From a virus, in the IMG/VR virus record IMGVR_UViG_3300030419_002955, positions 1 to 23,007 of that record: 23,007 bases of DNA. One strand, 5' to 3'. Position numbers and translations under genes: made by a program. The notes beneath the pieces were generated by a model that worked only from the letters and a program-made list of their open reading frames with translations, was not told the origin of the DNA and searched no databases. This document shows, piece after piece, positions 1,911-18,104 of the stretch. The number at the start of each line of letters is the position of its first letter. Position 1 is the first letter of the stretch.

Positions 1911-4900
1911 TCAGTCCGGGAGGTGCCCAGTCTGCTGGTAGGCCTGGATATCTTCCAAATCCGGCACATCCTGGTCCTTGATGTCCCTCTGGTGGTATGC
2001 GTCTTTGATCCCCCTGACTGCATACTCAACTTCTTTCCGGGGATTGTAGGGGACCCTCTGGGGGAGCCTAAGGAGCTGTTGGACTGTTCGAGTAGTCCCC
2101 TGAATCCAGCCTTTATCCCACTCTGGGTTGTTTCCGGAGCCAAGCCAGTATGGGAGCGATGTCGCTGCGATCGGCACACCTCGCCAGAGCAAGTATGCAG
2201 CCGGACTTGTGTAGTACCTGCCGCTCTCGGGGTCTTTTTTGGCAGTTCCGGGAAGCCATCCGCTCATGGCTTGTGCTTGAGACTCCGTCAGCCACCGCCT
2301 GTTTCCTCGCTGGGTGTACTCCAAGTCGAAGCCCAGAGCATCAAGTGCTGTGCGACCAGCAAACTCGACAGGAGGAATCGTTTGGGAGAGGAGCACCTCT
2401 AAGCCCTGAGCTTCGATGTTCTCAGCGACATTTACGGGCTCGCCCCTCATCATCTCTGAGATAGATGCCCCCATTCCGTACAAGCCTATGAGGAGACCTG
2501 CCTGGAAATCGGCAACATCCAAAGTTGTCGCCGTGGGGGCCACGAGGGCTTCGTGGGTGTACCCCCGCTCCGGAGAGTTCTCCGCCCAGTACCTCCGAGT
2601 GTGGACATCCATCTCACGAAGCCCAAGGAGGAGGCGGGAATCCATCCAAGGGGGGTGGGCCTTCGCCAGAATGGCGCTCTCAATCACGAGGGGATCAACG
2701 TAGTCTTGTTCGATCCGCTCGTTATCAAAGAACCAATCTGGTAGTCCTTGGGCGATGAGGCCCAGGTCTTGGATATTGCCCAGCTTGGTCTTGTTTTGCA
2801 GAGACCTCTTGAGCATCTCGTCTGTCGGTCGGACGATCGGGTCCAAGTAGGCCCCGGCCGTGGTCTTATTGGCGAGGTACCAGAATCGAGTGAAGGGTAC
2901 GACTTTTACGAGTGTCTGGAGTTCACCTCGGGCAATCCCGTGCTTCCAGTCGTAGAGAGCTTCCAGAGTTCGTCGCTTAGCTTCTTTCCGTGGGACCCCT
3001 TGCCTCAGGAGATGGGTATATAGGGCCATCCTCTGGCGCTGCTGGACAAAAGAAGCGTGGTCTGAGATCTGCCGGTTCCACGATTTGACGGCATTCCGGA
3101 GAGCCATCTCCATCTCGGCTGCGATTTTCCCAGTCCCAGACAGCTCTTTCGTTTGGTAGATCGACTTGAGGGCGCCCTCGATAAGAGAGTTCGCGGCCTG
3201 GGCGTAGTGGTCAGCAAGCTCCGCGTGGACAAAGGTCTCCAAGATCCCGTCTTCTGCTGCCCAACGGAAAGCTTGCTTAGATGTCATCGTGGTCCCGTCA
3301 GGTAGACGGAAAACGACATCTTCCCCCTTGAACATCTTCCCCAACAGAGGATTCAGGAAGCTCACGAGGGGGGAGGGGAGGGCGTCCTCTACTCCCTGTT
3401 TCCGAGCCCAATCTCCCATCATCGCCGCGTACTCATCGAGCCGCTTCGCCATGGGCAAGTTCGTTGGGAGGTTCAGGAGGCTTAGGTGAGTAGCAGTCCT
3501 CAGGTCTTCCGAGAACCACATCTGAAAAGCGTCACCTACGACATTGTTGGTCCAATAGCGGGGGTTGGGGAGGCCCCACCCAGTGACTACGCTCGTCCGC
3601 CATAGGTTCAACCACTCCGAGAAAGCGTCAACGCCGGCTCGGGCGAACTCTTTGCCCGTAGGAGCCTGCCAGAAGGGCTCCAAAGTCTTGATGACTTTGT
3701 CCATCTCGGCGTCAAACTGGTCCACCATTGCCTTCGGCAGGTAAACACTCTCGCCAGCACCTGTTTCCCCCCACTTGATCATAGACGCCGACAGCTCTTG
3801 GGCTTTGAAGAGGCCATCTCCGACTGTCTTGATGACGCTTTGTGGGAAAGGGATCCCCAGTCGGTTGAGGGCCGATAGTGCCTCTTCGACACTGCCCTTG
3901 TCATACTGGCCAGCAAACATCCTGTTCACTGAGGCCGCTTCGTCCGCACTAAGGACTCCGCCCAACAGCCTACGAGCCAAGCCTGTAGCGTAGTCGTTAG
4001 CCACGGCCTGCCCAGAGGCAGTGAGGCCAATAGCGTGGACCTTTTGGAGCCGACTATCTACCTTCCCAACCAGGGCAAGGGTGGCCTTCTCCATGTTCCG
4101 AACGTACTCTCGGTAAGAGTTGCTCGACGAGGCCAGACCTCGGGCCAGTGCGGTGAGAGTTGCCCCTGTGTCCTCGGAGATTTTATACCCTGACGGGAGC
4201 CACATCCGAGCGAAGGCCCGTTGGGGGGCTGAGGCACTGCCCATGAGGGCCTCAGCGATTTCCTTATCTGAAAGCTTCTTCAGGACTTCAACCAACTTGT
4301 CTTTGTGCTTGCCGTCAGGGACTTTATCGAGAGCTTTAGCCACCCGGACTCTCGCCCTCTCAACGTCGAGGGCAGCAGAAGCGGCTTCTGCTGGATCGTG
4401 TCGGCTGGCCGTAGTTAGGAACCGACGTACTTTGTCCCATCGAGTGCCGGGGCCCGTCATCAGGTCAACCGGGGACGGCGCTTTGTGCTGCCCCAGAGCC
4501 CCAGAGGTCACCATGGCCACACCCTGGTGGTCCATGATGGCCATCATCTCGTCGACGTGAACAGGTTGGCCTTTTCGGGTAGTCCTCTCAAGGAGTTCCC
4601 TCTGCCATAGGCCTGCAAGGTTCTCTTGAGCCCTAAGGACGTCTTGGAGGGCCTCATTGGTTTTCCCAATCCTCCCCTCTGCGAAGTGGAAAGACGCCAA
4701 GAGCCGCCTAAGGCCCCGAGTAAAGTCGCGCCCCCTGTCGATCTCATACGCTGTGACGTTCTGCTGGGCGAGGGCCAATGCCCGACCCCAAGTCATGCTC
4801 GACTTAGCCCACCGAAGTTCCTCTGCGTAAGCTGTGAGGAGCCTAAGGGACTCATAAAACTCCGCAGCCTTTTCTGGGGACAGAGTGTGGACCCCGGGTT

Positions 4901-7900
4901 TCAGTACTGCCCGAAGTGGGGCCCCCTCAGGAGCCGTCCTCACCCAATCCGCCAGAGTCGCATCGCCGATGGCGTCTGGGAGCGTGCTCTTCAGCCCACC
5001 TACCGACGGGGGAACTTTGATGTCATCCCCGTAGAGGCGCTCCAAGCGAGACTGTAGGAGGTCGCCATGGATGCGGGCACTCCCATCGGAGCGGCGATTT
5101 ACTACTTGGAGGAGGTTTTCGTAGTTCTTCTGCGCCTTAGCAGGGTCACTCCGCAGACCAACACGGCCAAGGTCTTCCAGGGACTTAGTGAACAGGAGCC
5201 CAGGGGAGGTGAGGCTTGGGAGGTCCTTTCTGACCTCCTTACGGAAAGCGGCGAGCGAGTCAGCAAGCTCTTCGAGCGAGTTGTAGAACACTCGCGGCAT
5301 GTCGGCTGTGGCTTCATACTTCCAAGCTGCGCTGTCGGCGCGTTTTTGGGCGGCCTCCACCTTGGGGTCCAGCCTGTCTGCCCTTCCCGCCAGCTTATCG
5401 CTCTCCCTCTGAGCTGCTTTGAGGGCTTTATCGGCCTTGATGCGTTTTGCCCGAACACGGTCCAGCCTTCCGGCGACCTTCTCGATCCCTGTCCGGGCCC
5501 CACTGCCTTTCTGGAGGAGCTGAAAAGTCTCCTCAATGTGCTTAGCGGCTGCGACGGCCTCCTTGCCCTTGAGGGCGGGGCCTGCAATGGAAGCAAGGTG
5601 CCTCGAAGCCGCATTTAGCTGGGAGGCGTGGTCCTTCGGGATGATGATGTCAGTTGCGAGCCGAGCAGTTTTATCCTGGTCAGGCAGCTTTACTACGACG
5701 TAGACGCGCCCAGTCCCTCCGTGCGGCTTGACTTCGAGGACTTCAACGAGCCGGCCCCCACGCTTACTGATCTGACCGGCTTTGTCTCCCGTGGTGTGGA
5801 TCCGAACCTTACTGCCAGCCTTGGGGATACCGTGGGCGGTCAGAGCCTGATCGTAAGCGGTCTTGTACTTGTCGTAGCTTTCAATAGCCTTTTTGTGGCG
5901 GGCCTCAGTCTTTTTCCGTTCCCGAGTGGCACCCTTAGAGGCCTTATCCATGGCCCGATCGATCTTGTCGGTACTCGTCTTCGTCTTAGTGGGCCGGAGA
6001 CCCTTGACTGTCATACCTGGAACTTCTTCCAGACCTTCAGCCGCAAGCATTACTCCCAATCGAGCTTCCAAAGCCGCCTCTCCGAGGGAGTAGGCGATCA
6101 CTTCCTGCTGGGCTGACTTCAACTTTGCGGAGGCAGTCACGGCCTCAGCGGCGGCCAAGTCCAACTTGGCCTCTACTCCCGCCAACTCGCCTGCGGCCTT
6201 GGCTGACTTAGCCTCCACCTCTGCGAGAGTTTTGTATTCATTTGCGACTTTGCGCTCGACTGCGCCTGTGACGCTAAAGTCCTGCCCGACCTTGGCCCGA
6301 GTCATTTGCCCAAGCCAAGGATCTGAATCTTCAATCTTTTGGAGAATAGCTTCTGGGTGGAAGTCTGCGACTCTCCCACTCGTGGCAGCATCTTTAGCGG
6401 CCTCCATGCCCACACGGAGAGCGTCCTCAGATTTCCTCAGCTTCCAGAGCTTTGTCGCCACCTTTGCTGCTTTGGGGATGGGGCCCAGGGGGACGAGAGT
6501 CATAGAAAGGAGGTCGGGCTCTGCAAGGACAATCCCCAAAGCTGGAAGCAGGCCTACTGCCTTCTTTACGCCTGTAGGGGCGTGCTCGGCTGCGATTTGG
6601 GCGGTCGTCCCTGGGACCATCTCTAAGCCCGCCTCACCCAACATCGTCAAAACCCGAGGGTCAAAGATGTCCAAGCCTCGGCGCAGTTCGTCTACTGCTT
6701 GCTTTGAGGTGGCTGAGCCGGAGAGGAGGCGACCTTTGTCTTCCCCTCGGGCGATCCCAGACAAAGTCATCGGAGGGAGCAAGTCTTCGCCCTCTCCTGT
6801 GATCATCCAAGCGGCGGCGAGGGTAGATGGAGCAAACCTAAAGAAGGGATCCATCGTCTCCAGGGCTCCAAACTGGCCTGCAGAAAGGCCAACCCAGCTA
6901 TCCAACCCCTTTTGGTCCGCGAGATACCCACCCTCATACACGGTAGGGGGAGACATGATGGATGCTGCTGGCCGCAATGCGGCAGGCAACTCCATGATCT
7001 GCTCAGTCGGTGTAGTTACCTTCTCTTCGCCGTACTCCCCCTCATAGATGGTGTCGATGAGCTGCACCTGGGGGGAGAACGTCTTGAAGTTCGCCTCCAT
7101 TTGCACTTGGGCTCGCCGGTTGGCCTCTTCCCGAAAGAGCGCCCTCTCCTCCGGGGGGCGTTGGTTCATTTGGAGGCCGTCTTCTTTCTGAGCACTACGC
7201 TGAATGGCTTGAAGGTACTCTTGGTACATCTTCTTGTGCATTTCAGCTTGATTGAGCCGGATTTTGTCGTCCGTCAACCGCCACAAAGGGAGCCTGTCCT
7301 GCTCCATGCGGAGTGTCCGGACAGCTTGGCGATCAATCTCATCGCCCTCCCCAAAGAAGATGGCTTCCCGGAAAGACTTAGCGAGTTCCGCCTCTCCCCC
7401 CTTTAGGTGCTTGGTTGATTGCTCGTCGGCGGCCAACTCCAGCATGGTCTGGAGGCCTTCTTCCGGCGTAAGTTCTCCCTTCGCGATTTGACGCTCTACC
7501 TTATCTCGACCCTCTTGTGAGACGTACTGAGTGAGGCCTTTCATCCACCTCGACTGAGCCTCTGGGGGGAGATCTCCCCAGCGAGCACTGGCATCCCGTA
7601 GCCCTTCTCCGACACCTTTGATGTCGCCCTCGACCCGTAGTGGGGGGGCTGGTTCTGGGGCAATGTCCGGAAGGGGATCCAGAGGGGGGTAAGCGTGTTC
7701 CGGCATGTACCGGACTCCAGGCTCTTTATCCTCCTTCTCAAACTCAACCGCTTCAGGTTCGGGGAGGGGCGGAGGGACAGAAGCGCCTTTCGAGACACTC
7801 GCCGTAAACTCGCTCCCAAAAAGCTGATCCAGCAGGTCCGAGCCATATAGGCTTTTGCTTACTCGACCCTCTACAAAAGTTTCTCGCTCCCCCTTGAAGG

Positions 7901-8027
7901 TAGGGGGACCTTCCCGATCTTCTGGGGCCTTGTCTGCCTCAGGGTCGTCAATAGCCACGCCAGTTCGGGCTAAGTCTTCCCCAAACAGGTCTTTGACCAG
8001 CTCATACCCGACCTTACCAGACCCCAT
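1911..8027 (-). CDS. Giant internal virion/ejection-type protein
   Basis: A 2038-residue protein, over a quarter of the window. Visible parts: an acidic and Pro-rich N-terminal region (about 20-135); helical regions to 480; a hydrophobic stretch at 488-515 (AVGLLPALGIVLAEPDLL); coiled-coil-like helices at 598-650 and 845-905 with a small beta-rich, SH3/KOW-like segment between them (about 735-797, GSKVRIHTTGDKAG, VYVVVKLPDQ); and a C-terminal region with NPRYWTNNVVGDAF (1488-1501) and ALYDWKHGIARGELQTLVKV followed by VPFTRFWYLANK (1690-1721). The last two resemble paired conserved motifs that I associate with very large phage virion proteins (large polyvalent protein-associated type). No lytic transglycosylase, protease or polymerase motif was found. 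Position and size match T7 gp16-like ejection proteins, which enter the cell with the DNA. Confidence 0.7.
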   Translation of the reverse strand: MGSGKVGYELVKDLFGEDLARTGVAIDDPEADKAPEDREGPPTFKGERETFVEGRVSKSLYGSDLLDQLFGSEFTASVSKGASVPPPLPEPEAVEFEKEDKEPGVRYMPEHAYPPLDPLPDIAPEPAPPLRVEGDIKGVGEGLRDASARWGDLPPEAQSRWMKGLTQYVSQEGRDKVERQIAKGELTPEEGLQTMLELAADEQSTKHLKGGEAELAKSFREAIFFGEGDEIDRQAVRTLRMEQDRLPLWRLTDDKIRLNQAEMHKKMYQEYLQAIQRSAQKEDGLQMNQRPPEERALFREEANRRAQVQMEANFKTFSPQVQLIDTIYEGEYGEEKVTTPTEQIMELPAALRPAASIMSPPTVYEGGYLADQKGLDSWVGLSAGQFGALETMDPFFRFAPSTLAAAWMITGEGEDLLPPMTLSGIARGEDKGRLLSGSATSKQAVDELRRGLDIFDPRVLTMLGEAGLEMVPGTTAQIAAEHAPTGVKKAVGLLPALGIVLAEPDLLSMTLVPLGPIPKAAKVATKLWKLRKSEDALRVGMEAAKDAATSGRVADFHPEAILQKIEDSDPWLGQMTRAKVGQDFSVTGAVERKVANEYKTLAEVEAKSAKAAGELAGVEAKLDLAAAEAVTASAKLKSAQQEVIAYSLGEAALEARLGVMLAAEGLEEVPGMTVKGLRPTKTKTSTDKIDRAMDKASKGATRERKKTEARHKKAIESYDKYKTAYDQALTAHGIPKAGSKVRIHTTGDKAGQISKRGGRLVEVLEVKPHGGTGRVYVVVKLPDQDKTARLATDIIIPKDHASQLNAASRHLASIAGPALKGKEAVAAAKHIEETFQLLQKGSGARTGIEKVAGRLDRVRAKRIKADKALKAAQRESDKLAGRADRLDPKVEAAQKRADSAAWKYEATADMPRVFYNSLEELADSLAAFRKEVRKDLPSLTSPGLLFTKSLEDLGRVGLRSDPAKAQKNYENLLQVVNRRSDGSARIHGDLLQSRLERLYGDDIKVPPSVGGLKSTLPDAIGDATLADWVRTAPEGAPLRAVLKPGVHTLSPEKAAEFYESLRLLTAYAEELRWAKSSMTWGRALALAQQNVTAYEIDRGRDFTRGLRRLLASFHFAEGRIGKTNEALQDVLRAQENLAGLWQRELLERTTRKGQPVHVDEMMAIMDHQGVAMVTSGALGQHKAPSPVDLMTGPGTRWDKVRRFLTTASRHDPAEAASAALDVERARVRVAKALDKVPDGKHKDKLVEVLKKLSDKEIAEALMGSASAPQRAFARMWLPSGYKISEDTGATLTALARGLASSSNSYREYVRNMEKATLALVGKVDSRLQKVHAIGLTASGQAVANDYATGLARRLLGGVLSADEAASVNRMFAGQYDKGSVEEALSALNRLGIPFPQSVIKTVGDGLFKAQELSASMIKWGETGAGESVYLPKAMVDQFDAEMDKVIKTLEPFWQAPTGKEFARAGVDAFSEWLNLWRTSVVTGWGLPNPRYWTNNVVGDAFQMWFSEDLRTATHLSLLNLPTNLPMAKRLDEYAAMMGDWARKQGVEDALPSPLVSFLNPLLGKMFKGEDVVFRLPDGTTMTSKQAFRWAAEDGILETFVHAELADHYAQAANSLIEGALKSIYQTKELSGTGKIAAEMEMALRNAVKSWNRQISDHASFVQQRQRMALYTHLLRQGVPRKEAKRRTLEALYDWKHGIARGELQTLVKVVPFTRFWYLANKTTAGAYLDPIVRPTDEMLKRSLQNKTKLGNIQDLGLIAQGLPDWFFDNERIEQDYVDPLVIESAILAKAHPPWMDSRLLLGLREMDVHTRRYWAENSPERGYTHEALVAPTATTLDVADFQAGLLIGLYGMGASISEMMRGEPVNVAENIEAQGLEVLLSQTIPPVEFAGRTALDALGFDLEYTQRGNRRWLTESQAQAMSGWLPGTAKKDPESGRYYTSPAAYLLWRGVPIAATSLPYWLGSGNNPEWDKGWIQGTTRTVQQLLRLPQRVPYNPRKEVEYAVRGIKDAYHQRDIKDQDVPDLEDIQAYQQTGHLPD

Positions 8028-8030
8028 AGC

Positions 8031-9722
8031 TCACTGCCCGGGGCGGAAAGAAGAGGTCAGACGCTTGAGGGATTCCCTCAAAGCTCCTGTCTGGCTGTCT
8101 GTAGGCTCTTCAGCCGCCCCACTCATGTTCGGTGGCTCGTTGATCGTAGCTTCGCCCCCATCAGTGCCCCCATCTCCTTGGGAGTCTTCGTCCTCGTGGA
8201 GGTCCAACTCGATTTCAGGGGCATCTTCGTCTTGTCTGGTGACGTTGGGGATCTTGTACTGCTCGTCCTCAAACTCAAACTCTTCATCATCACTCCCATA
8301 AGCCGCACCTTCTTCTCGACTTAGGTCGAGCGGGGGCCCAGGGGGGAGACCTGACTCTTCCGCCTTCTCCTTGAACTGCCTCGTTCGGACATCGGCCTGA
8401 CGAAGTTGGATGTCTTCCTCGGCGCTCTTGCGGCCCTCTTCGCCGGCCAAGAGTCGCTGAACGTCAGCCAAAAGGCCACCACTGATCCCACCGATCCTGT
8501 TGGCCCTTTCCGCTTCTCGACTCGTTCGGACGTTCTGGCGCTTCATTCGACGCGCGTCCTGCATGAACTTCTTGAAGGCGTAATCTGCGTCGGTGTACCC
8601 CTTCATCTCCATGTACTCTTTGAACCGGTCATCGCTAACGATGGCCCGCTTCATCCGCATCAGTACAGGATCTACCGTCCCCTTTTCCAGCTCCTCCAGA
8701 GCCTTATCCATAGTGTCTTGGGCCGGACTCGGCGTGGTTTCCGACGTCTTCAGGGCTTCCGTAAACTTGTACCCCATCCCTTGGAGGGCTTCCTGCATAC
8801 TCGGAGGGATCGGCTCACCCGCACGAACAAGCTTGAGGTAGTCCGTGAATAGGCCCTGAAGTTCACCAGCAAACGAGGCGGCTCCACCGAGGCCAGCCCC
8901 GGCGGCCTTATCGAGGTCCCTCTGGGCGTCCCACAAGTCCTTAGTGGCTTGGTCGTAAGCCGCAAACTTCTTCGAAGTCTTCATCTCCATTTGGGCGAAC
9001 CACATCAGCTCATCAGGCTGGAGCCACTCGGATCCAGCACTCCCATCCGGATTGGACTCGGGCGAAGTGATGTCCTCGAAGACCTCATCGTAGGACTTGC
9101 CTGTACGAGCTGCGACTTCAGCCAAAGCTGCCCGAGCTGTGTAGATGTCTCCGAGGCCTTTGAGTTTGAGGGCCGCTTGGGCGGTCAGGTTACTCCTCGG
9201 CCCTGACGTCATTGCGGTGATGATCTCGTCGATGACAGTCTCAGCTTGGGCTGGCAGCTCATCAAACTCGACAATCCCCTCCAGGGCCTTGTTCTGAGCG
9301 GCTTTAGCTTCTTTGTACTTCGCGTTTGCAGCCGCTGACCTCAAGTCAGCAGTCTTACGGGAAGACGAGGCCGATTCCGTAGTGATCGTCTTCAGGAGGT
9401 CCGTTATCCCCTTCTGCAACTCCCCTTGAGTCTTAGAAGACACCCCCCCACTTCGAGCCTCGGCGTTGTACTTAGCCAGTCGAGCCTGAAGCTCTGCAAA
9501 CCTCGCCAGCATCTCAGCCTTAGCGGCGGGGTCCGTAACGCCCAGGGTGTTGGGGTCAGTCCAAAAACGGGACACGCCCACACCGGGGGACCGGCCAGCG
9601 CGAGCATCACGAGTACCAGCGAGCCCACGCTGAACAGCGTAGTTCCGCATCTTTCGGTAGTCAGTGGCTTGGGCGGCCATATCCGCCGGGATCACGTAGT
9701 TTCCCTGCTCATCGAACGGCAT
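8031..9722 (-). CDS. Probable middle internal virion (ejection) protein with acidic tail
   Basis: A 563-residue mainly helical protein. Ala/Lys/Glu-rich helices fill about residues 60-450, with coiled-coil-prone parts (ELQARLAKYNAEAR, RMKRQNVRTSREAERANRI). From about 474 to 520 the sequence is highly acidic (GSDDEEFEFEDEQYK, LDLHEDEDSQGDGG). The end is neutral to basic (SLKRLTSSFRPGQ). There are no Cys residues that I noticed and no enzyme motif. It lies 3 nt after the small ejection-like gene and 3 nt before the giant one, and is therefore likely the middle component of the same complex. The acidic tail may keep it from binding packaged DNA or dock it to a basic partner, which is inference. 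Confidence 0.6.
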   Translation of the reverse strand: MPFDEQGNYVIPADMAAQATDYRKMRNYAVQRGLAGTRDARAGRSPGVGVSRFWTDPNTLGVTDPAAKAEMLARFAELQARLAKYNAEARSGGVSSKTQGELQKGITDLLKTITTESASSSRKTADLRSAAANAKYKEAKAAQNKALEGIVEFDELPAQAETVIDEIITAMTSGPRSNLTAQAALKLKGLGDIYTARAALAEVAARTGKSYDEVFEDITSPESNPDGSAGSEWLQPDELMWFAQMEMKTSKKFAAYDQATKDLWDAQRDLDKAAGAGLGGAASFAGELQGLFTDYLKLVRAGEPIPPSMQEALQGMGYKFTEALKTSETTPSPAQDTMDKALEELEKGTVDPVLMRMKRAIVSDDRFKEYMEMKGYTDADYAFKKFMQDARRMKRQNVRTSREAERANRIGGISGGLLADVQRLLAGEEGRKSAEEDIQLRQADVRTRQFKEKAEESGLPPGPPLDLSREEGAAYGSDDEEFEFEDEQYKIPNVTRQDEDAPEIELDLHEDEDSQGDGGTDGGEATINEPPNMSGAAEEPTDSQTGALRESLKRLTSSFRPGQ

Positions 9723-11629: not shown

Positions 11630-12267
11630 TAGCGGCCCCTCCTCATCTCAAGGGCAACAACTTCTCGGCTTCCCACATAGATGAAGTTTGCTGTGAAAGC
11701 CAAAGTCTTCACGACCAACTCAACTGTGTGGGTGCCCGAGGGGAGGGGGATGATGGCGTTCGTCCCCTGGGGCCACACACCATACCCCAAACCTCCAAGC
11801 GGATCGTTCTCCACTTCTACGCTACCAATGATGCTCTCTGAGATGATTTGCCCATTGACCCTCAGGGCAAAAGAAGGGAGGGGCGTATTGTTTGGGGTAT
11901 TGGGGGCCGTGGGGTGGAGCTGCCAAGAAGCCCACAGCATGAGTGTGCAAGCAGGAGCACTCAGCGAGATGGTTGTGGATGAGACAGCCACCCAGGAAAT
12001 AGTTGATTCCACCAGGAAGGCGTTGGTGGGCAGTGTCGTGTAGTCCACGTACTGGCTGGCGCTATGCCACACAAAGGCCGAAGAAGGATCAATATCCGTG
12101 ACGGCCGTAATGGCGCGGGCTGAGGGAGTCCCCACACTACCCGACCAGTTGTGCTCGTTTAGAGATCCCCCCAGCTCTTCTACATACTCAAAGAAGTTCG
12201 CATTGAGATCTTCCAGGTCTGTGACCCGAGTATTGAGGAGCGGAAACTTAGGAACTCGCCAACTCAC
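11629..12267 (-). CDS. Tail/virion fibre-like beta-sandwich protein, first of three
   Basis: A 212-residue protein with a GTG start overlapping the nozzle stop as GTGA. A short N-terminal helix (LNTRVTDLEDLNANFFEYVE) precedes a beta-rich body (about 50-212) ending in PSGTHTVELVVKTLAF and SREVVALEMRRGR. The closing pattern, GTHTVEL then a strand then REVVALEM, resembles jelly-roll or C1q-like domains found in phage appendage proteins, which fits a fibre or baseplate-type decoration. No receptor specificity can be read. It begins a run of three similar-size genes joined by 1-nt overlaps. Confidence 0.65.
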   Translation of the reverse strand: MSWRVPKFPLLNTRVTDLEDLNANFFEYVEELGGSLNEHNWSGSVGTPSARAITAVTDIDPSSAFVWHSASQYVDYTTLPTNAFLVESTISWVAVSSTTISLSAPACTLMLWASWQLHPTAPNTPNNTPLPSFALRVNGQIISESIIGSVEVENDPLGGLGYGVWPQGTNAIIPLPSGTHTVELVVKTLAFTANFIYVGSREVVALEMRRGR

Positions 12268-14426
12268 TTGGGCACCCTGGTCGTAGAGGGTCGAGGGACC
12301 TCGTCGAAGGAGAGCCCAATAAAGTCCCAGTGCCCCTGATGATTGATACGAAGCTTGAAAGCCTCGGCCCCTGCCACAAAGATGTCAGCCTTCCCTCGGA
12401 TCCAATACGGACGACGACGTTTCCAAGTGAGGGGATCCCCATCCGGGTCAGTCCCGTTGTACGTCGCAGTCCCCCAGAAAGGTGGAATGTCGTCGGTCGC
12501 GTGTAGCTGGACAGTGATGGTCTGTGTCACTGGACTTGTCCGGTAATCCCGGTACACGTCCACATTGAGTGTCCCGTTTTCAGACTCCCGGAGCCAGAAG
12601 AAGACTGTCATAGGGGACCCACGACGCTCTGACTTTAGACTCCGGAGCCATGCAGTCTCAACTTGACTGGTCCGAGCTGTGGGAGCCCAGGAGTTGTTGA
12701 CCTCGTGGTCTACGAGCCACACCCCTTCAGAGTAAGTGGACGAGGTCGAAGCCCGCCCAACTGCAATCATGTAGTGGCGATGATCGTCTGTGACTACGAC
12801 ATCAGCGGCTTGCACATCATCTCGACGTGACCACCCACGCCCATCGTACTCCCAGCACAGATTGTTGTAGACGGAACCTTCAGTGGGGACCCAACAGCGA
12901 TACCGCTTAGTGCGCGAATCGACAGCCGAGCAAGCCTGTAGGAGACGAGCACGGTTGAAGGTCCGGACTTCTCTCTCGATGTCTTGAGAGATCGGGCCGA
13001 TTGCACCTCCGGCGTGGTTGTAGAAGCCGTCCCTGGACAGCCACACTGTCTGCCCAGAGGGCATAGTCTGGATCGAAGACGGAGCAGCACAGCCCACAGT
13101 TGGGTGCAATGTCTGGGACTTGAAGCTCTTACCGTCATCCGAGACGGTAAGCAGGAAGGTGCTGTGCTCTGTGAACACCAGTAGGCCTCCCTCTACCGCG
13201 TGTAGGCCTGTGATGGCCCTGCCCCGAGGGTCTGGGTAGAGGAAATCGTTCCGGCGGAACGTCCCCCACCGCCCAGGCATCGTCCATCGAAGCAGTCCTG
13301 GGTCCTCATCGTAGTTGGCAGAAAAGCCTCGACCAAAGGCCAACTTGTAGAGCTTGAATGGGCGGACAGGGATGATGTCCTCGGTCGGCTTGACCAACCA
13401 GGAGTCAGGGACATTGTCCGGGAAGAGGTCTGAGACATTGTCTGGGATAGTCGCAAACCCAAGACCCCCCTCCTGGGCCCCTGCAGGGATCTCAAACAAG
13501 TCCAATGTCCCAGAGTGGCGTTGGTCTTTAGTCCGAGACAAGATCTTGCCGATGGTCCCGTCTGGGCCATCCTCCAAACCACACCAAACAATCTGCTTTG
13601 GGAGATCTGCTACTGCGGTGCTTGTGCCCGGAGAGACATCAGTCGTTCGCTCTTCCTCGAAGACCACAAGATTAGACCGGAGGGAGAGCGGCGAGAGATT
13701 ACCCCAGAGGTCAATCCACTGTAGGGCCGCCCTATACGAACCCTTCATCAGGGTCCCCTGCATCTCGTGGGCACCGCCTACAACCAACCCCTCAGTCGTG
13801 ATTGTCCCCAACCGACCGTAGCGGTAGTCGTTGTGCATGTTGGCGCCATCGTGGTGATAGCCACTGTCGTTAGGCGCATTGTCGGTGTCCGGGCCCCACC
13901 CAATAGGGGCACCTGGGGTCTCTGAGTAGCCCAGAGGGGCTGTCGTCTTACCGTCGTAGAAGTAAGGGCGGCTACTCTCCCCCTTAGGGATGATGACTAC
14001 GCCTCCGGGCGTGCTCTCAAACTGAGAAGGGAAACGGGGCCTGGAATCAACAGCGAAAGAGGTCGTTACATCGGGGCTTAGTGCCGCAGGCCCCAAGATG
14101 GGGTGCCAAATCGCATTGGGAGTACCTCCTCCGGCAGTCCATCCCCGAAAGGTGTGGATCCCATCTCCCCATTGGATCAGGAGAATCTCCTTACCGTCCC
14201 ACCGAGTTGTGTGGTGGACGCCGTGGAGGCGGCCACTGAAGCTTGGATAGCCCTCTCCCCAGTTGGGGACGTAAGGACATGGCCCCCACACAGAGCGGAT
14301 AGTTCCTTCCTCTGTGGGGTACATGTTTAGGATCTCCCCGGCAATAGAGTCGGGGAGAAAGAGCTTCCCTGACTCAATCCGGAGAGGGAGCCTGGAAGAG
14401 CGGATCCGGACGGAGTCGTCAGCCAT
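12264..14426 (-). CDS. Tail nozzle protein, beta-propeller type (gp10/gp12-like)
   Basis: A 720-residue beta-rich protein with many Trp and Gly residues and repeated blade-like segments: GDGIHTFRGWTAGGG, then LLVFTEHSTFLLTVSDDGKS (around 420-440), IQTMPSGQTVWLSRDGFYNH, and NNLCWEYDGRGWSRRDD (around 540-560). The pattern of a test of stored data (VFTEHSTFLL), a GCAAPSSIQ segment and a WLSRDGFY strand is typical of phage tail nozzle and stabilisation proteins such as P22 gp10 and T7 gp12, which extend the short tail under the adaptor ring. It follows the adaptor gene with one gene between. The N-terminal strand block (residues 6-45) is probably the adaptor-binding part. Its TGA stop overlaps the next GTG start as GTGA. 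Confidence 0.75.
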   Translation of the reverse strand: MADDSVRIRSSRLPLRIESGKLFLPDSIAGEILNMYPTEEGTIRSVWGPCPYVPNWGEGYPSFSGRLHGVHHTTRWDGKEILLIQWGDGIHTFRGWTAGGGTPNAIWHPILGPAALSPDVTTSFAVDSRPRFPSQFESTPGGVVIIPKGESSRPYFYDGKTTAPLGYSETPGAPIGWGPDTDNAPNDSGYHHDGANMHNDYRYGRLGTITTEGLVVGGAHEMQGTLMKGSYRAALQWIDLWGNLSPLSLRSNLVVFEEERTTDVSPGTSTAVADLPKQIVWCGLEDGPDGTIGKILSRTKDQRHSGTLDLFEIPAGAQEGGLGFATIPDNVSDLFPDNVPDSWLVKPTEDIIPVRPFKLYKLAFGRGFSANYDEDPGLLRWTMPGRWGTFRRNDFLYPDPRGRAITGLHAVEGGLLVFTEHSTFLLTVSDDGKSFKSQTLHPTVGCAAPSSIQTMPSGQTVWLSRDGFYNHAGGAIGPISQDIEREVRTFNRARLLQACSAVDSRTKRYRCWVPTEGSVYNNLCWEYDGRGWSRRDDVQAADVVVTDDHRHYMIAVGRASTSSTYSEGVWLVDHEVNNSWAPTARTSQVETAWLRSLKSERRGSPMTVFFWLRESENGTLNVDVYRDYRTSPVTQTITVQLHATDDIPPFWGTATYNGTDPDGDPLTWKRRRPYWIRGKADIFVAGAEAFKLRINHQGHWDFIGLSFDEVPRPSTTRVPK

Positions 14427-14871: not shown

Positions 14872-16410
14872 CTACGGCAAGTTGTACCAACGACGCCACG
14901 GCTTTCGTGTGTCTACGAGAGTAGTCACCCGAGCAGGCTTCCTCAAGATGGGCTCCGAGGGGTAGCTCAAGTCGCCATAGCGCTTGGTCATTGTGAAGAG
15001 GGATTCCTTGTACTGGCCGACAGCCCGGTCAGCCATCTTGACGTTCCCAATCATCTCGTACATGAGGATTAGGGTCTTGTAGATCAAGACTTCCATCGCA
15101 TCTCGGTGGATCAGGGGAGAGTCCTGATCATCTACGAGGGCCATAGGGCGTTTGACGCAACGGACATCCAACTCATAGCGCTGATCTGGCCGGGGGTAGA
15201 AGGCCACAGATTGATATCCATGACTTTCCCGCAATCGTCGGTGGTAGTCCGGAGAGGCGACCCCAATATCGTCGTAGGTGATCGTGAAGTCATCCACTTC
15301 AGCGAGGAGGTAGTACACCGGAGATGACTGGATCTGGTCACCTCCAGGCATGTCCCTAAGCAGCGTGGTGTATGCGACCGACCTATCGATGGAGTGCCTA
15401 CGTCGGTAGATCCGCTTGAAGAAGCCACCATGCCCGTAGCGTTGAGTCGTGTTGACTCCAAAGCCCTGCATGAAGCCCAGGTTGGGGAGGGTGAGCTGGA
15501 TGCGCTGGTTAGTTCCGGCGTTGGTGTTGGAGACAACTGCGCTGATGGGGCTCGGAGGGCTCTCCCATCGGGGCTCTGGGTGAGCCGCCCTACTGGTGAC
15601 CATACTGCCTGCGGGGCCGAAGGTCTGAATCTCTTCATCCCGGTAGCCCCAGCAGTAGGTCATGAGGTAGCTGAACTCGCCAGCAGGTTCTGGCCCCTCC
15701 CAGTTCACTCCCGTAGTGACGGCTGCAGTCGGAGAAACAAAGGGAGCATCCAGGCTGAAGTGGCCCCGACGCCACGCGACTCGCGGGACTCCGGCACTGA
15801 CCTGGGATGGACTATCAGCCAATGAGAGCTTTTCAGCTTCCATTTGAGAGATGATGTCCAAAGGCCAGTTCTGGTTGCTCTTCGCCAACCGCATTGAGTG
15901 GACTTGAATCAAGTTGTCGGGGAGCGAGTAAGCGTCCGTGTAGATCCGGTAGTCCATCCCTGTGTCTGTGGTGTTGTGCCACGGACGATACAGGGAAAGG
16001 TTCTGACGGGGACCACTGTCGTCAGTCCAGATGTCTCGGATCCGATGACGGTGGATTTGCCCGCTTGGATCCGTGACCTCAATCATCCGGCTGTTCCAGT
16101 ACCCAGCCTCGTCCCAAAGAGTAAGGCCTGTCGCCGTATTCAGGGGGGTCCGCTCCAAGACCCAAGGGTCTGAGCTGGAAACACGAAGCCTATCGGGGCC
16201 TCCTGCAGCAGTGGTAATCGACTGCGCAGGGAAGTCCGGGAGGGTAGCGATGCGGAGAGTCTGCTCAAAAAAGAGGAAAGGGGCTTCTTCCGCCAACTGC
16301 ATGTAGGCGCGATTGATGAGTCGGTTGACTCGGGTAGTGGCGTCTGAGGACTGAGTGGGGGCCCAGTCCACCTGGGAGAAGACGCGATCTCGGATGTCAG
16401 CCAGATTCAT
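14872..16410 (-). CDS. Head-tail connector/adaptor protein (gp4-like or tail tubular A-like)
   Basis: A 512-residue protein. The N terminus (MNLADIRDRVFSQVDWAPTQ, then a helix containing RVNRLINRAYMQLAEEAPFL) and the C-terminal helical part (DAMEVLIYKTLILMYEMIGN, then ADRAVGQYKESLFTMTKRYG) match the general pattern of podovirus adaptor proteins. These form a ring under the portal and join head to tail, as P22 gp4 and T7 gp11 do. In between lies a long beta-rich insertion (about residues 60-400), so the protein is much larger than P22 gp4 (166 residues) or T7 gp11 (196 residues). The insertion may carry an extra domain that contacts the nozzle or fibres. The gene lies after the capsid block and before the nozzle gene, as expected for this role. 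The assignment is good for the two ends and uncertain for the middle. Confidence 0.7.
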   Translation of the reverse strand: MNLADIRDRVFSQVDWAPTQSSDATTRVNRLINRAYMQLAEEAPFLFFEQTLRIATLPDFPAQSITTAAGGPDRLRVSSSDPWVLERTPLNTATGLTLWDEAGYWNSRMIEVTDPSGQIHRHRIRDIWTDDSGPRQNLSLYRPWHNTTDTGMDYRIYTDAYSLPDNLIQVHSMRLAKSNQNWPLDIISQMEAEKLSLADSPSQVSAGVPRVAWRRGHFSLDAPFVSPTAAVTTGVNWEGPEPAGEFSYLMTYCWGYRDEEIQTFGPAGSMVTSRAAHPEPRWESPPSPISAVVSNTNAGTNQRIQLTLPNLGFMQGFGVNTTQRYGHGGFFKRIYRRRHSIDRSVAYTTLLRDMPGGDQIQSSPVYYLLAEVDDFTITYDDIGVASPDYHRRLRESHGYQSVAFYPRPDQRYELDVRCVKRPMALVDDQDSPLIHRDAMEVLIYKTLILMYEMIGNVKMADRAVGQYKESLFTMTKRYGDLSYPSEPILRKPARVTTLVDTRKPWRRWYNLP

Positions 16411-17036: not shown

Positions 17037-18104
17037 CTACGGGGTGTTAGCGCCAGTAACGGCACCGTTGCAGCGGAGCTGATCGCAGTACAGGCCCATG
17101 TTCAGCACGTACTCGTACCGCCACATGTCCTGCTCGGGAATCCGGATGGGGCCCCGGATAGCGAAGTCGCCCTTGGTCTCCATCCCAGAGTCGTGACCCA
17201 GAGTAAAGAGGTGCCAAGTCGAAGACTTGAGGTAGTAGATGACGCCGTCCTGAGCAGCAGCGGTGGAGAAGCTGCCGGGGACAATGTCCTCTTCCATGTA
17301 GAAGGTGGCGTCCAGGAACTCAACACCCATGCGGACGTTGGACGGGGCCTTGTCACCCTCGACCTTCGCGACGCGGACTTCCTGGTCCAAGTCGTCGATG
17401 TAGGTCAGGTAAGAGGTGGGGTCGCCCAGCAGCAGATCCACGGGGCCCATGACCTTGGAGCCCTGGCGGCTGCACTCGTAGTAGACCTGACGCATCCGGT
17501 TCCGGCCATTGGCCGCGAAACTGGTAATGTCAGCGTACTGGTTGACCCAGCCCGTAGTCGTAGCCTTGTTCAGGCCAAAGACGGTACCCGTCTGCGCCGT
17601 GGTAGCGGCGAAGTCGAGGGCTCCGTCACGAGCAGTGCCCTGGGGGTTGTAGGTAGCGTCACCGTTCAGGGTCGGGAAACCACCAACACCGGCACCGGTA
17701 CCCATGGCGAGCTGAGTAGCAATCCGCTCGTGGAAGTCGGACAGTGCCAGCTCGGGGTAGGACTTGATGATCTTAGCCAGATCATTCGCGCCATTAGCCT
17801 CAGCCAGATCCTTACCCGGGACATCGAACGCATAAATGATGCGGGGCGCGTAGGCGTCACCGCGAGAAGCGTTCTGGCGACGACCACCGGCAATGACCTC
17901 AGATCCCGTAAGGACCTGGGTGACCTGACCGGGGCCATCCGTCACCACGGTGAACTCGCGGTAGGGACCCTTCAGGGAAGCCCGGTCAATATTGCCCTTC
18001 TTCACGATCTTATCGAGAATCGGGTGCCAAGTGGTGAAGAGGTCACTGTACCCAGGAGCGAGGTCCTGGAGAGCAGTTGCGACGACGTCCGGAGAAATGG
18101 CCAT
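17037..18104 (-). CDS. Major capsid protein (HK97-fold presumed)
   Basis: A 355-residue protein that builds the icosahedral head shell. The N-terminal region (MAISPDVVATALQDLAPGYS) is followed by mixed alpha/beta sequence with capsid-like features: an extended charged segment early on (residues 45-110), a central helix (SYPELALSDFHERIATQLAM), and a late beta-rich part with VEFLDATFYMEEDIVPGS and RYEYVLNMGLYCDQLRCN. Phage coat proteins often close with a similar description of substrate-like loops and a final strand. The main evidence is context: it directly follows a scaffold-like gene, precedes a cement-like gene and has a strong AAAGGGAG ribosome-binding site, as expected for the most abundant virion protein. 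No protease cleavage site or N-terminal delta domain can be assigned, consistent with a separate scaffold. Whether it is closer to P22 coat or another HK97-fold branch cannot be judged by eye. Confidence 0.85.
   Translation of the reverse strand: MAISPDVVATALQDLAPGYSDLFTTWHPILDKIVKKGNIDRASLKGPYREFTVVTDGPGQVTQVLTGSEVIAGGRRQNASRGDAYAPRIIYAFDVPGKDLAEANGANDLAKIIKSYPELALSDFHERIATQLAMGTGAGVGGFPTLNGDATYNPQGTARDGALDFAATTAQTGTVFGLNKATTTGWVNQYADITSFAANGRNRMRQVYYECSRQGSKVMGPVDLLLGDPTSYLTYIDDLDQEVRVAKVEGDKAPSNVRMGVEFLDATFYMEEDIVPGSFSTAAAQDGVIYYLKSSTWHLFTLGHDSGMETKGDFAIRGPIRIPEQDMWRYEYVLNMGLYCDQLRCNGAVTGANTP

Follow-up and report, generated by a model that had tools for sequence, protein, structure and literature searches.

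The passage of proteins of 200–400 kDa through a phage tail of roughly 35 Å, followed by their refolding, is an open question (PMC12633501). In the ejection systems of T7 (gp14, gp15 and gp16) and N4 (gp52, gp51 and gp50), the genes form a small-medium-large trio, the layout also seen in the phage described here, and T7 gp16 (internal virion protein D) is encoded by the third and largest gene of this trio after the tail tubular genes, as is the protein that we describe. The stretch of DNA analysed, hereafter the window (23,007 nucleotides, positions 1 to 23,007 of the IMG/VR record IMGVR_UViG_3300030419_002955), derives from a short-tailed virus of bacteria in which this very large protein, P0001, probably enters the host cell before the viral DNA. 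We regard P0001 as probably the large internal (ejection) protein of a short-tailed phage that has not been cultured; by gene position it corresponds to T7 gp16 and N4 gp50.

Gene context and family

A single open frame of 2038 codons fills positions 1911–8027 of the window on the minus strand; the plus-strand reading of the same interval contains stops. The initial annotation had reported this frame without naming a strand, and we consider the gene real because many records contain long open frames that belong to its family. It is the last member of three adjacent, co-oriented genes of increasing size standing behind the tail genes, and these, like the neighbours named below, all lie on the minus strand. 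By position only, the 187-aa P0003 (9726–10289) corresponds to gp14/gp52 and the 563-aa P0002 (8031–9722) to gp15/gp51. No sequence match of P0002 to T7 gp15 or N4 gp51 was found; a Pfam hit of P0002 to DUF643 (E = 0.058) was under the cut-off and was taken as chance or coiled coil. Upstream of the trio stand the genes of a nozzle/tail-tubular-like protein (P0007, 720 aa, 12264–14426; phrog_3287 virion structural protein, E = 1.1e-9) and of a member of the SU10 adaptor family (P0008, 512 aa, 14872–16410; 28.2 bits, cut-off 27), and the 355-aa P0011 (17037–18104) is the putative major capsid protein, as judged from place and conservation. The arrangement recurs among relatives: in all 14 stretches reaching upstream, an ORF of 534–1352 aa, the size range of P0002 relatives, ends −8 to +15 bases from the gene of the P0001 family and is itself preceded by an ORF of 146–270 aa.

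Operon position, sizes and neighbours therefore support the ejection-type identity proposed initially. P0001 might instead be a structural protein of the outer tail or one associated with the fibres, and not be ejected; we regard this as highly improbable given the gene order and size pattern and, as detailed below, the hydrophobic segment, the polyvalent-type fold and the presence of injected-type enzymes in relatives.

P0001 falls in a family known from uncultured phage records, from which 42 ORFs were collected, some of them cut or near-duplicate. L045, near-identical to L044, was dropped after alignment A1. L079 and L080 were also omitted (contig shared with L055; truncated version of L081); alignment A7 comprised 20 of the 42 ORFs and A8 38 of them, without L097, L107, L111 and L114. 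Searches with P0001 returned no match among 50,697 deposited phage genomes or in viral_contigs, and neither P0011 nor the C-terminal part of L048 had a match in the 50,697 phage records. The family marks a group of phages whose injection parts can be recognised, whereas hardly any wall enzyme has been recognised in them.

N-terminal half and the question of wall passage

Residues 1–340 (7008–8027; this and all further features of P0001 are on the minus strand) are acidic (pI 4.7), partly disordered, Pro-rich between residues 80 and 146 and weakly conserved. Both ends of the protein are acidic and residues 600–1760 are basic (pI 9.2–9.8). Residues 483–520 (6468–6581) form a hydrophobic helix with an EPD motif, a candidate membrane segment which contains the sole 19-mer of P0001 with a hydropathy above 1.3; the EPD motif is present in 14 of 20 aligned rows. 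Among the reference proteins, this block matched T7 gp16 318–384, inside its TM region I, best; at 6.0 bits the match fell below the best of 550 shuffled sequences (6.5), so homology to that region is not claimed.

Two coiled-coil blocks around a short beta-rich segment had been predicted initially, and this architecture was borne out. Block 1 (residues 601–731; 5835–6227) and block 2 (residues 798–935; 5223–5636) are defined by heptad periodicity and AlphaFold2. Of 1000 shuffles, 8 reached the hydrophobic periodicity seen in residues 598–650; for residues 845–905, none of 1000 did so. The AlphaFold2 model of residues 1–1080 is mostly helical and weak (pLDDT 64, pTM 0.35); it places helices at 601–663, 685–731, 798–839 and 843–908 and, among them, strands at 758–769, 772–780 and 787–797. 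The beta-rich segment itself (residues 735–797; 5637–5825) was delimited by AlphaFold2 and beta-former content, which reaches at least 24% at the aligned place in 11 of 19 relatives and is lower in the other 8. Since the pLDDT of the strands is only about 47–65, the fold is not settled, and three low-confidence strands as against a five-stranded barrel do not confirm the SH3/KOW identity suggested for it. Against the PDB, the model of the N-terminal half matched chiefly SMC/MukB-type coiled coils (E down to 3.4e-4, but TM 0.06), with VIA Z of up to 11.1.

The absence of a recognisable enzyme, also asserted initially, held in every search: no Pfam family scored above cut-off, PHROG gave no match at E ≤ 1 and the PDB sequence search no match (best E 0.063). 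A Pfam hit to CENP-F_leu_zip (E = 0.058) lay under the cut-off and was attributed to chance or coiled coil. No polymerase was detected by Pfam or PHROG, phrog_2206 did not match at E ≤ 1, and HExxH is absent from P0001. A Pfam scan found no wall-cutting domain in P0001 or in 28 relatives, while the identical library recovered SLT in T7 gp16 (1.7e-31) and in a Limnohabitans phage protein (9e-17); SLT was present in none of 33 records. The lack of a wall enzyme is the rule across the family and not peculiar to P0001. P22 gp16 offers a known precedent for an ejection protein without a wall hydrolase (PMC8954989).

An enzyme of some kind should nevertheless breach the wall. A search of the 33 records for six families of wall enzymes yielded a single free-standing M15 gene and nothing else, so that the enzyme may be diverged beyond detection. 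P0001 could then hold a wall-degrading or other enzyme too distant for profile libraries and act like the full T7 gp16, the more so as residues 1–480 are poorly modelled. We judge this improbable: the library that detected SLT at once in gp16 and in the Limnohabitans protein found none in the family members scanned, and the N-terminus, where SLT resides in gp16, is partly disordered and Pro-rich in P0001. A hydrolase hidden in residues 140–480, as had been suggested, likewise found no support, the region being modelled as helices of mixed confidence with only coiled coils as PDB matches (a weak test), and a wall-enzyme fold was absent among the matches listed for both half-models.

Conserved core and possibly exchangeable cargo

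The conserved core of the family (residues 1300–2013; 1989–4130) is LPD38-like by predicted fold. It contains the motif NPRYWTNNVVGDAF (residues 1488–1501; 3525–3566) and the most conserved stretch, QRQRMALY..LYDWKHG..VPFTRFWYLANK (residues 1661–1721; 2865–3047), in which VPFTRFWYLANK begins at residue 1710; both motifs lie where they had been placed initially. The core model (pLDDT 75.5, pTM 0.75) had 36 matches at E ≤ 0.001 in BFVD, many of them named large polyvalent protein associated, with LPD38 named in two of the top 50 (one such protein at E = 3.7e-4, TM 0.25). The Pfam LPD38 profile (PF18857) matched neither P0001 nor anything in the 33 records at E ≤ 10; it matched 7 of 398 other genomes. 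In a weak hhalign alignment of core and LPD38 (score 25.5, E = 0.09), a pair of motif blocks kept its order; the score exceeded those of all 50 column shuffles (maximum 22.8), but was under the best 15-column-block shuffle (33.5). The core resembles phage large polyvalent (LPD38-type) proteins by predicted fold only. The best PDB match of the core model, the N4 mini-vRNAP fold (E = 0.2, TM 0.06), was dismissed as noise; VIA Z was at most 6.5 and came mainly from one helical stretch.

Between the N-terminal half and the core, residues about 1001–1050 (4878–5027) form a poorly occupied joint, short in P0001 as if an 'empty slot'. Four relatives (L053, L085, L102 and L104) carry zincin metallopeptidase (MPTase), ADP-ribosyltransferase (ART) or pentapeptide repeats: L085 has all three, L102 MPTase and L104 ART, the last counted for ART only because the region around its HExxH shows no similarity to the MPTase by BLAST. 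In L053, an insert of 465 residues that contains the metallopeptidase falls exactly at this joint; its zincin matches phrog_2206 (E = 4.7e-16), and the insert is homologous to phikF77 ORF37 (3e-14) and to the Limnohabitans phage protein (2e-16). L086, the sister of L053, lacks these 465 residues, the two proteins being 41% identical over 1–979 and 57% over 1445–2417. As read from the sequences of this pair, the joint is a cargo slot, which appears empty in P0001. Such close relatives, differing by one inserted enzyme at one joint, provide matched pairs in which the packaging and translocation part can be set against the cargo. The cargo label was not clustered on a quick tree beyond shuffles (500 of 500 as low).

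We put forward, tentatively, that the family may serve as a natural delivery chassis. It would consist of a core that is packaged and ejected and an arm that threads through, joined at a single exchangeable cargo slot; separate lineages would have acquired a metallopeptidase, ADP-ribosyltransferase or pentapeptide-repeat module there, the slot being empty in the window's phage. If so, core and arm alone suffice for packaging and translocation. The predicted C-terminal fold and the enzyme cargo of relatives support the polyvalent link drawn initially, and the same two observations would suit P0001 being an early-acting host-modifying polyvalent protein whose cargo has escaped recognition, and not chiefly a component of DNA translocation. 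This seems rather unlikely, as its slot is short and without a recognised domain, and the model of its N-terminal half consists mainly of helices, long coiled coils among them. Where polyvalent proteins are defined by at least two unlike enzymatic or effector domains (Iyer et al. 2017), P0001 has none and its relative L085 three.

Comparison with known ejection systems

The initial annotation had P0001 building or lining a DNA conduit. Gene context upholds its ejection-type identity; by the T7, DEV and N4 precedents, however, the tube would be formed by the 187- and 563-residue proteins. On our best reading, by analogy, P0001 would be a last-out ejection protein acting at the inner membrane and cytoplasm. 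Packaged in the head, it would leave via the tail after these two proteins have built an outer-membrane/periplasmic tube; its N-terminal part would thread the tube and contact the inner membrane through the hydrophobic segment. The basic coiled-coil region and core, placed at the membrane or in the cytoplasm, would then hold the DNA or pull it in, DNA binding being suggested by charge. The joint would carry enzymes for the new host in some relatives and none in the window's phage, and passage through the wall would depend on an enzyme encoded elsewhere that has escaped recognition, or on gaps that the wall already has.

T7 gp16 and P0001 share a hydrophobic segment in the N-terminal part and a large C-terminal region; they differ in length (1318 and 2038 aa) and in the N-terminal SLT of gp16, and BLAST gave no match between them at E ≤ 1. 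Profile comparisons (A1, A7, A8 and the EPD block) of the family's core and N-terminal half with T7 gp16, phikF77 ORF37 and N4 gp50 gave nothing beyond noise. The P22 gp16 type, likened here by description (PMC8954989), resembles P0001 in having no transglycosylase, but is only 609 aa long. The virion RNA polymerases N4 gp50 and DEV gp71 (Schitoviridae) are, like P0001, giant last members of the trio, and their zincin domain, which in the N4 type follows the polymerase, is common to some P0001 relatives such as L053; P0001 itself has neither RNA polymerase nor HExxH, and its core is not homologous to theirs by profile. The LPD38-bearing polyvalent proteins (Iyer et al. 2017, PMC5512222) differ in that the Pfam LPD38 profile misses P0001, but have a core fold like that predicted for it, and relatives of P0001 bear MPTase and ART-PolyVal cargo. 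Finally, ORF37 of the phiKMV type and the Limnohabitans phage YIMV22061 protein that resembles gp16, the latter also with SLT, differ from P0001, which has neither SLT nor MPTase; they occupy the same place in the operon, and their MPTase is homologous to the L053 insert.

Gene context and relatives of the putative ejection protein

The gene for P0001, the putative large ejection protein of a short-tailed phage (window 1911-8027), comprises 2038 codons on the minus strand, ends at position 1911 and starts 3 bases past the stop codon of the gene for the 563-residue protein P0002. All window genes read as real lie on the minus strand; they include, in this order, an adaptor (SU10_adaptor match of 28.2 bits, cut-off 27), a nozzle-like protein (phrog_3287, 1.1e-9), three proteins of 212-228 residues, which may be fibres, and then the proteins of 187, 563 and 2038 residues. 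We infer that P0011, a 355-residue protein (17037-18104), is the major capsid protein. Upstream of its gene lies that of P0014 (19570-19998), with two CxxC pairs at the protein start, presumably akin to an FmdB-type zinc ribbon. The whole virus record measures 38,163 bases and also encodes a terminase (Terminase_6C match); it is probably a fragment, because its relatives reach 50-60 kb. The rest of this record holds a plus-strand cassette (L042:9899-14512), which we take to resemble a MoxR-VWA pair. It encodes an AAA_5 ATPase (20.5 bits, where the cut-off is 22) together with a DUF2201 metallopeptidase-like/VWA protein and a DUF6744 protein.

With P0001 as query, no match was obtained among deposited phages. 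A capsid-protein scan returned 20 loci, and a P0001 relative was encoded in 15 of the 20 records searched (18 out of that scan and 2 from another search); scans with C-terminal alignments gave 29, 1 and 30 loci, with overlap between scans. The family set of 42 collected ORFs includes near-copies and ORFs cut at contig ends, and complete members have about 1910-3698 residues, with the exception of one frame of 624. Within the first 31-member set, all 30 others matched P0001 by BLAST, over residues 1383-1734 as a minimum span; the family is most conserved across residues 1451-1600 and 1651-1730. The sole match in the bacterial collection, L086, is located in a Proteobacteria MAG, on a contig that probably represents a phage or prophage included in its bin, and this placement hints at a proteobacterial host. 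L086 (JAERSQ010000243.1; contig of 57,430 bases) is also the best BLAST match among the P0001 relatives. No paper describing the family was recognised in the open literature for the terms searched.

Protein anatomy and core fold

Residues 1-340 of P0001 are acidic and in part disordered. The only 19-mer with hydropathy above 1.3 (residues 483-501) continues into an EPD motif, found in 14 of 20 aligned rows, and predicted long helices (601-731 and 798-935) flank a beta-rich segment. Residues 600-1760 are basic and both ends acidic. The model of the conserved C-terminal core (residues 1040-2038; pLDDT 75.5, pTM 0.75) was adequate for fold searches, which gave no match under E 0.001 in the PDB and 36 models at E<=0.001 in a viral structure library. 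Among the named models, many carry the label 'large polyvalent protein associated domain'; one is ART-PolyVal-like and one LPD38. TM-scores are modest (maximum 0.52).

The Pfam LPD38 profile had no match in P0001 or in the 33 records scanned; it matches in 7 of 398 genomes, so seven sequences formed the comparison alignment. By hhalign, the P0001 family and LPD38 aligned over 201 columns at a score of 25.5 (E 0.09), and the two motif blocks follow each other in matching order. All 50 column shuffles scored lower, but block shuffles reached 33.5. The core thus resembles LPD38 in predicted fold, and its membership is putative.

Proposed cargo and the search for wall-degrading enzymes

The clearest case of an insert is the pair of family members L053 and L086, which are 41% identical over residues 1-979 and 57% identical over 1445-2417. 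Between these parts L053 has 465 residues and L086 has 19. At the same joint, some 40-50 residues of P0001 align poorly. We regard this joint as a cargo slot; among the four carriers, use of exactly this joint is shown for L053 only. In L053 (2421 aa), a phrog_2206 match spans residues 797-1335. Within it lies a zincin metallopeptidase (MPTase) domain, whose HELLH is at position 1104; this domain shows homology to phikF77 ORF37 and a Limnohabitans protein, and a weak match (0.011) links it to N4 gp50 around the HELVH of the latter. Iyer et al. (PMC5512222) describe this MPTase in the N4 vRNAP. L085 has three modules ahead of its P0001-like part, which BLAST aligns from 2089: an MPTase at 1255-1424, pentapeptide repeats that start at 1496 and an ART-PolyVal domain at 1683-1832. 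L102 has an MPTase, and L104 an ART at residues 1151-1307. Known carriers amount to 4 of the 42 ORFs (MPTase in 3, by BLAST of all 42; ART in 2), and on a quick tree they represent 4 changes, at least 3 of them forced by well-supported branches. Such cargo would be delivered into the host. ART matches occur in 3 of the 33 records; the third has ART-PolyVal on a separate 526-residue frame (G016:C1:28466-29440), distant from that phage's ejection gene, which we read as cargo in the form of a free gene.

Pfam revealed no wall hydrolase in 29 distinct family members, P0001 included (16 scanned first, then 13 further), nor in L104; as positive controls, SLT was found in T7 gp16 and the Limnohabitans protein, and Phage_lysozyme in phikF77 ORF36. 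Across the 33 records, SLT, Phage_lysozyme, Amidase_2 and Hydrolase_2 had no matches and M23 none above cut-off (one sub-threshold match). The only wall-enzyme family above cut-off was M15_3, with one peptidase on a separate 162-residue frame (G032:C1:23342-23683). Fifteen of these records exceed 50 kb, and the absence of wall enzymes is unproven because records may be incomplete.

The three-gene operon and known ejection systems

The upstream side was present in 14 of 15 stretches around P0001-family genes. In all 14, an ORF of 534-1352 residues precedes the P0001-family gene at a spacing of -8 to +15 bases, and one of 146-270 residues lies ahead of it. The P0002 family (window 8031-9722 and relatives; 534-1352 residues) has few invariant positions, and one of its 15 members shows a weak LPD23 match (E 0.015). 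In the family of the 187-residue P0003 (9726-10289), 5 of 13 aligned proteins (L043, L044, L047, L048 and L050) carry an extra C-terminal part of ~90 residues, beginning CWVAREV..., which P0003 lacks.

The likeliest role of P0001 is that of an ejected translocation protein whose slot is empty. The initial annotation, in which it builds or lines a DNA conduit, named the right kind of function, but P0002 and P0003 are the better candidates for the tube itself. No sequence homology of P0001 to the T7, N4 or phikF77 ejection proteins was detected. The layout of the P0003-P0002-P0001 trio is that of T7 gp14-gp15-gp16 (196, 747 and 1318 aa) and N4 gp52-gp51-gp50 (150, 644 and 3500 aa). In T7, N4 and DEV (PMC8954989, PMC10925440, PMC12633501), the first two ejection proteins form a pore in the outer membrane and a tube in the periplasm, and the third extends to the inner membrane and into the cytoplasm; by analogy, P0001 would be the third ejection protein of its trio.
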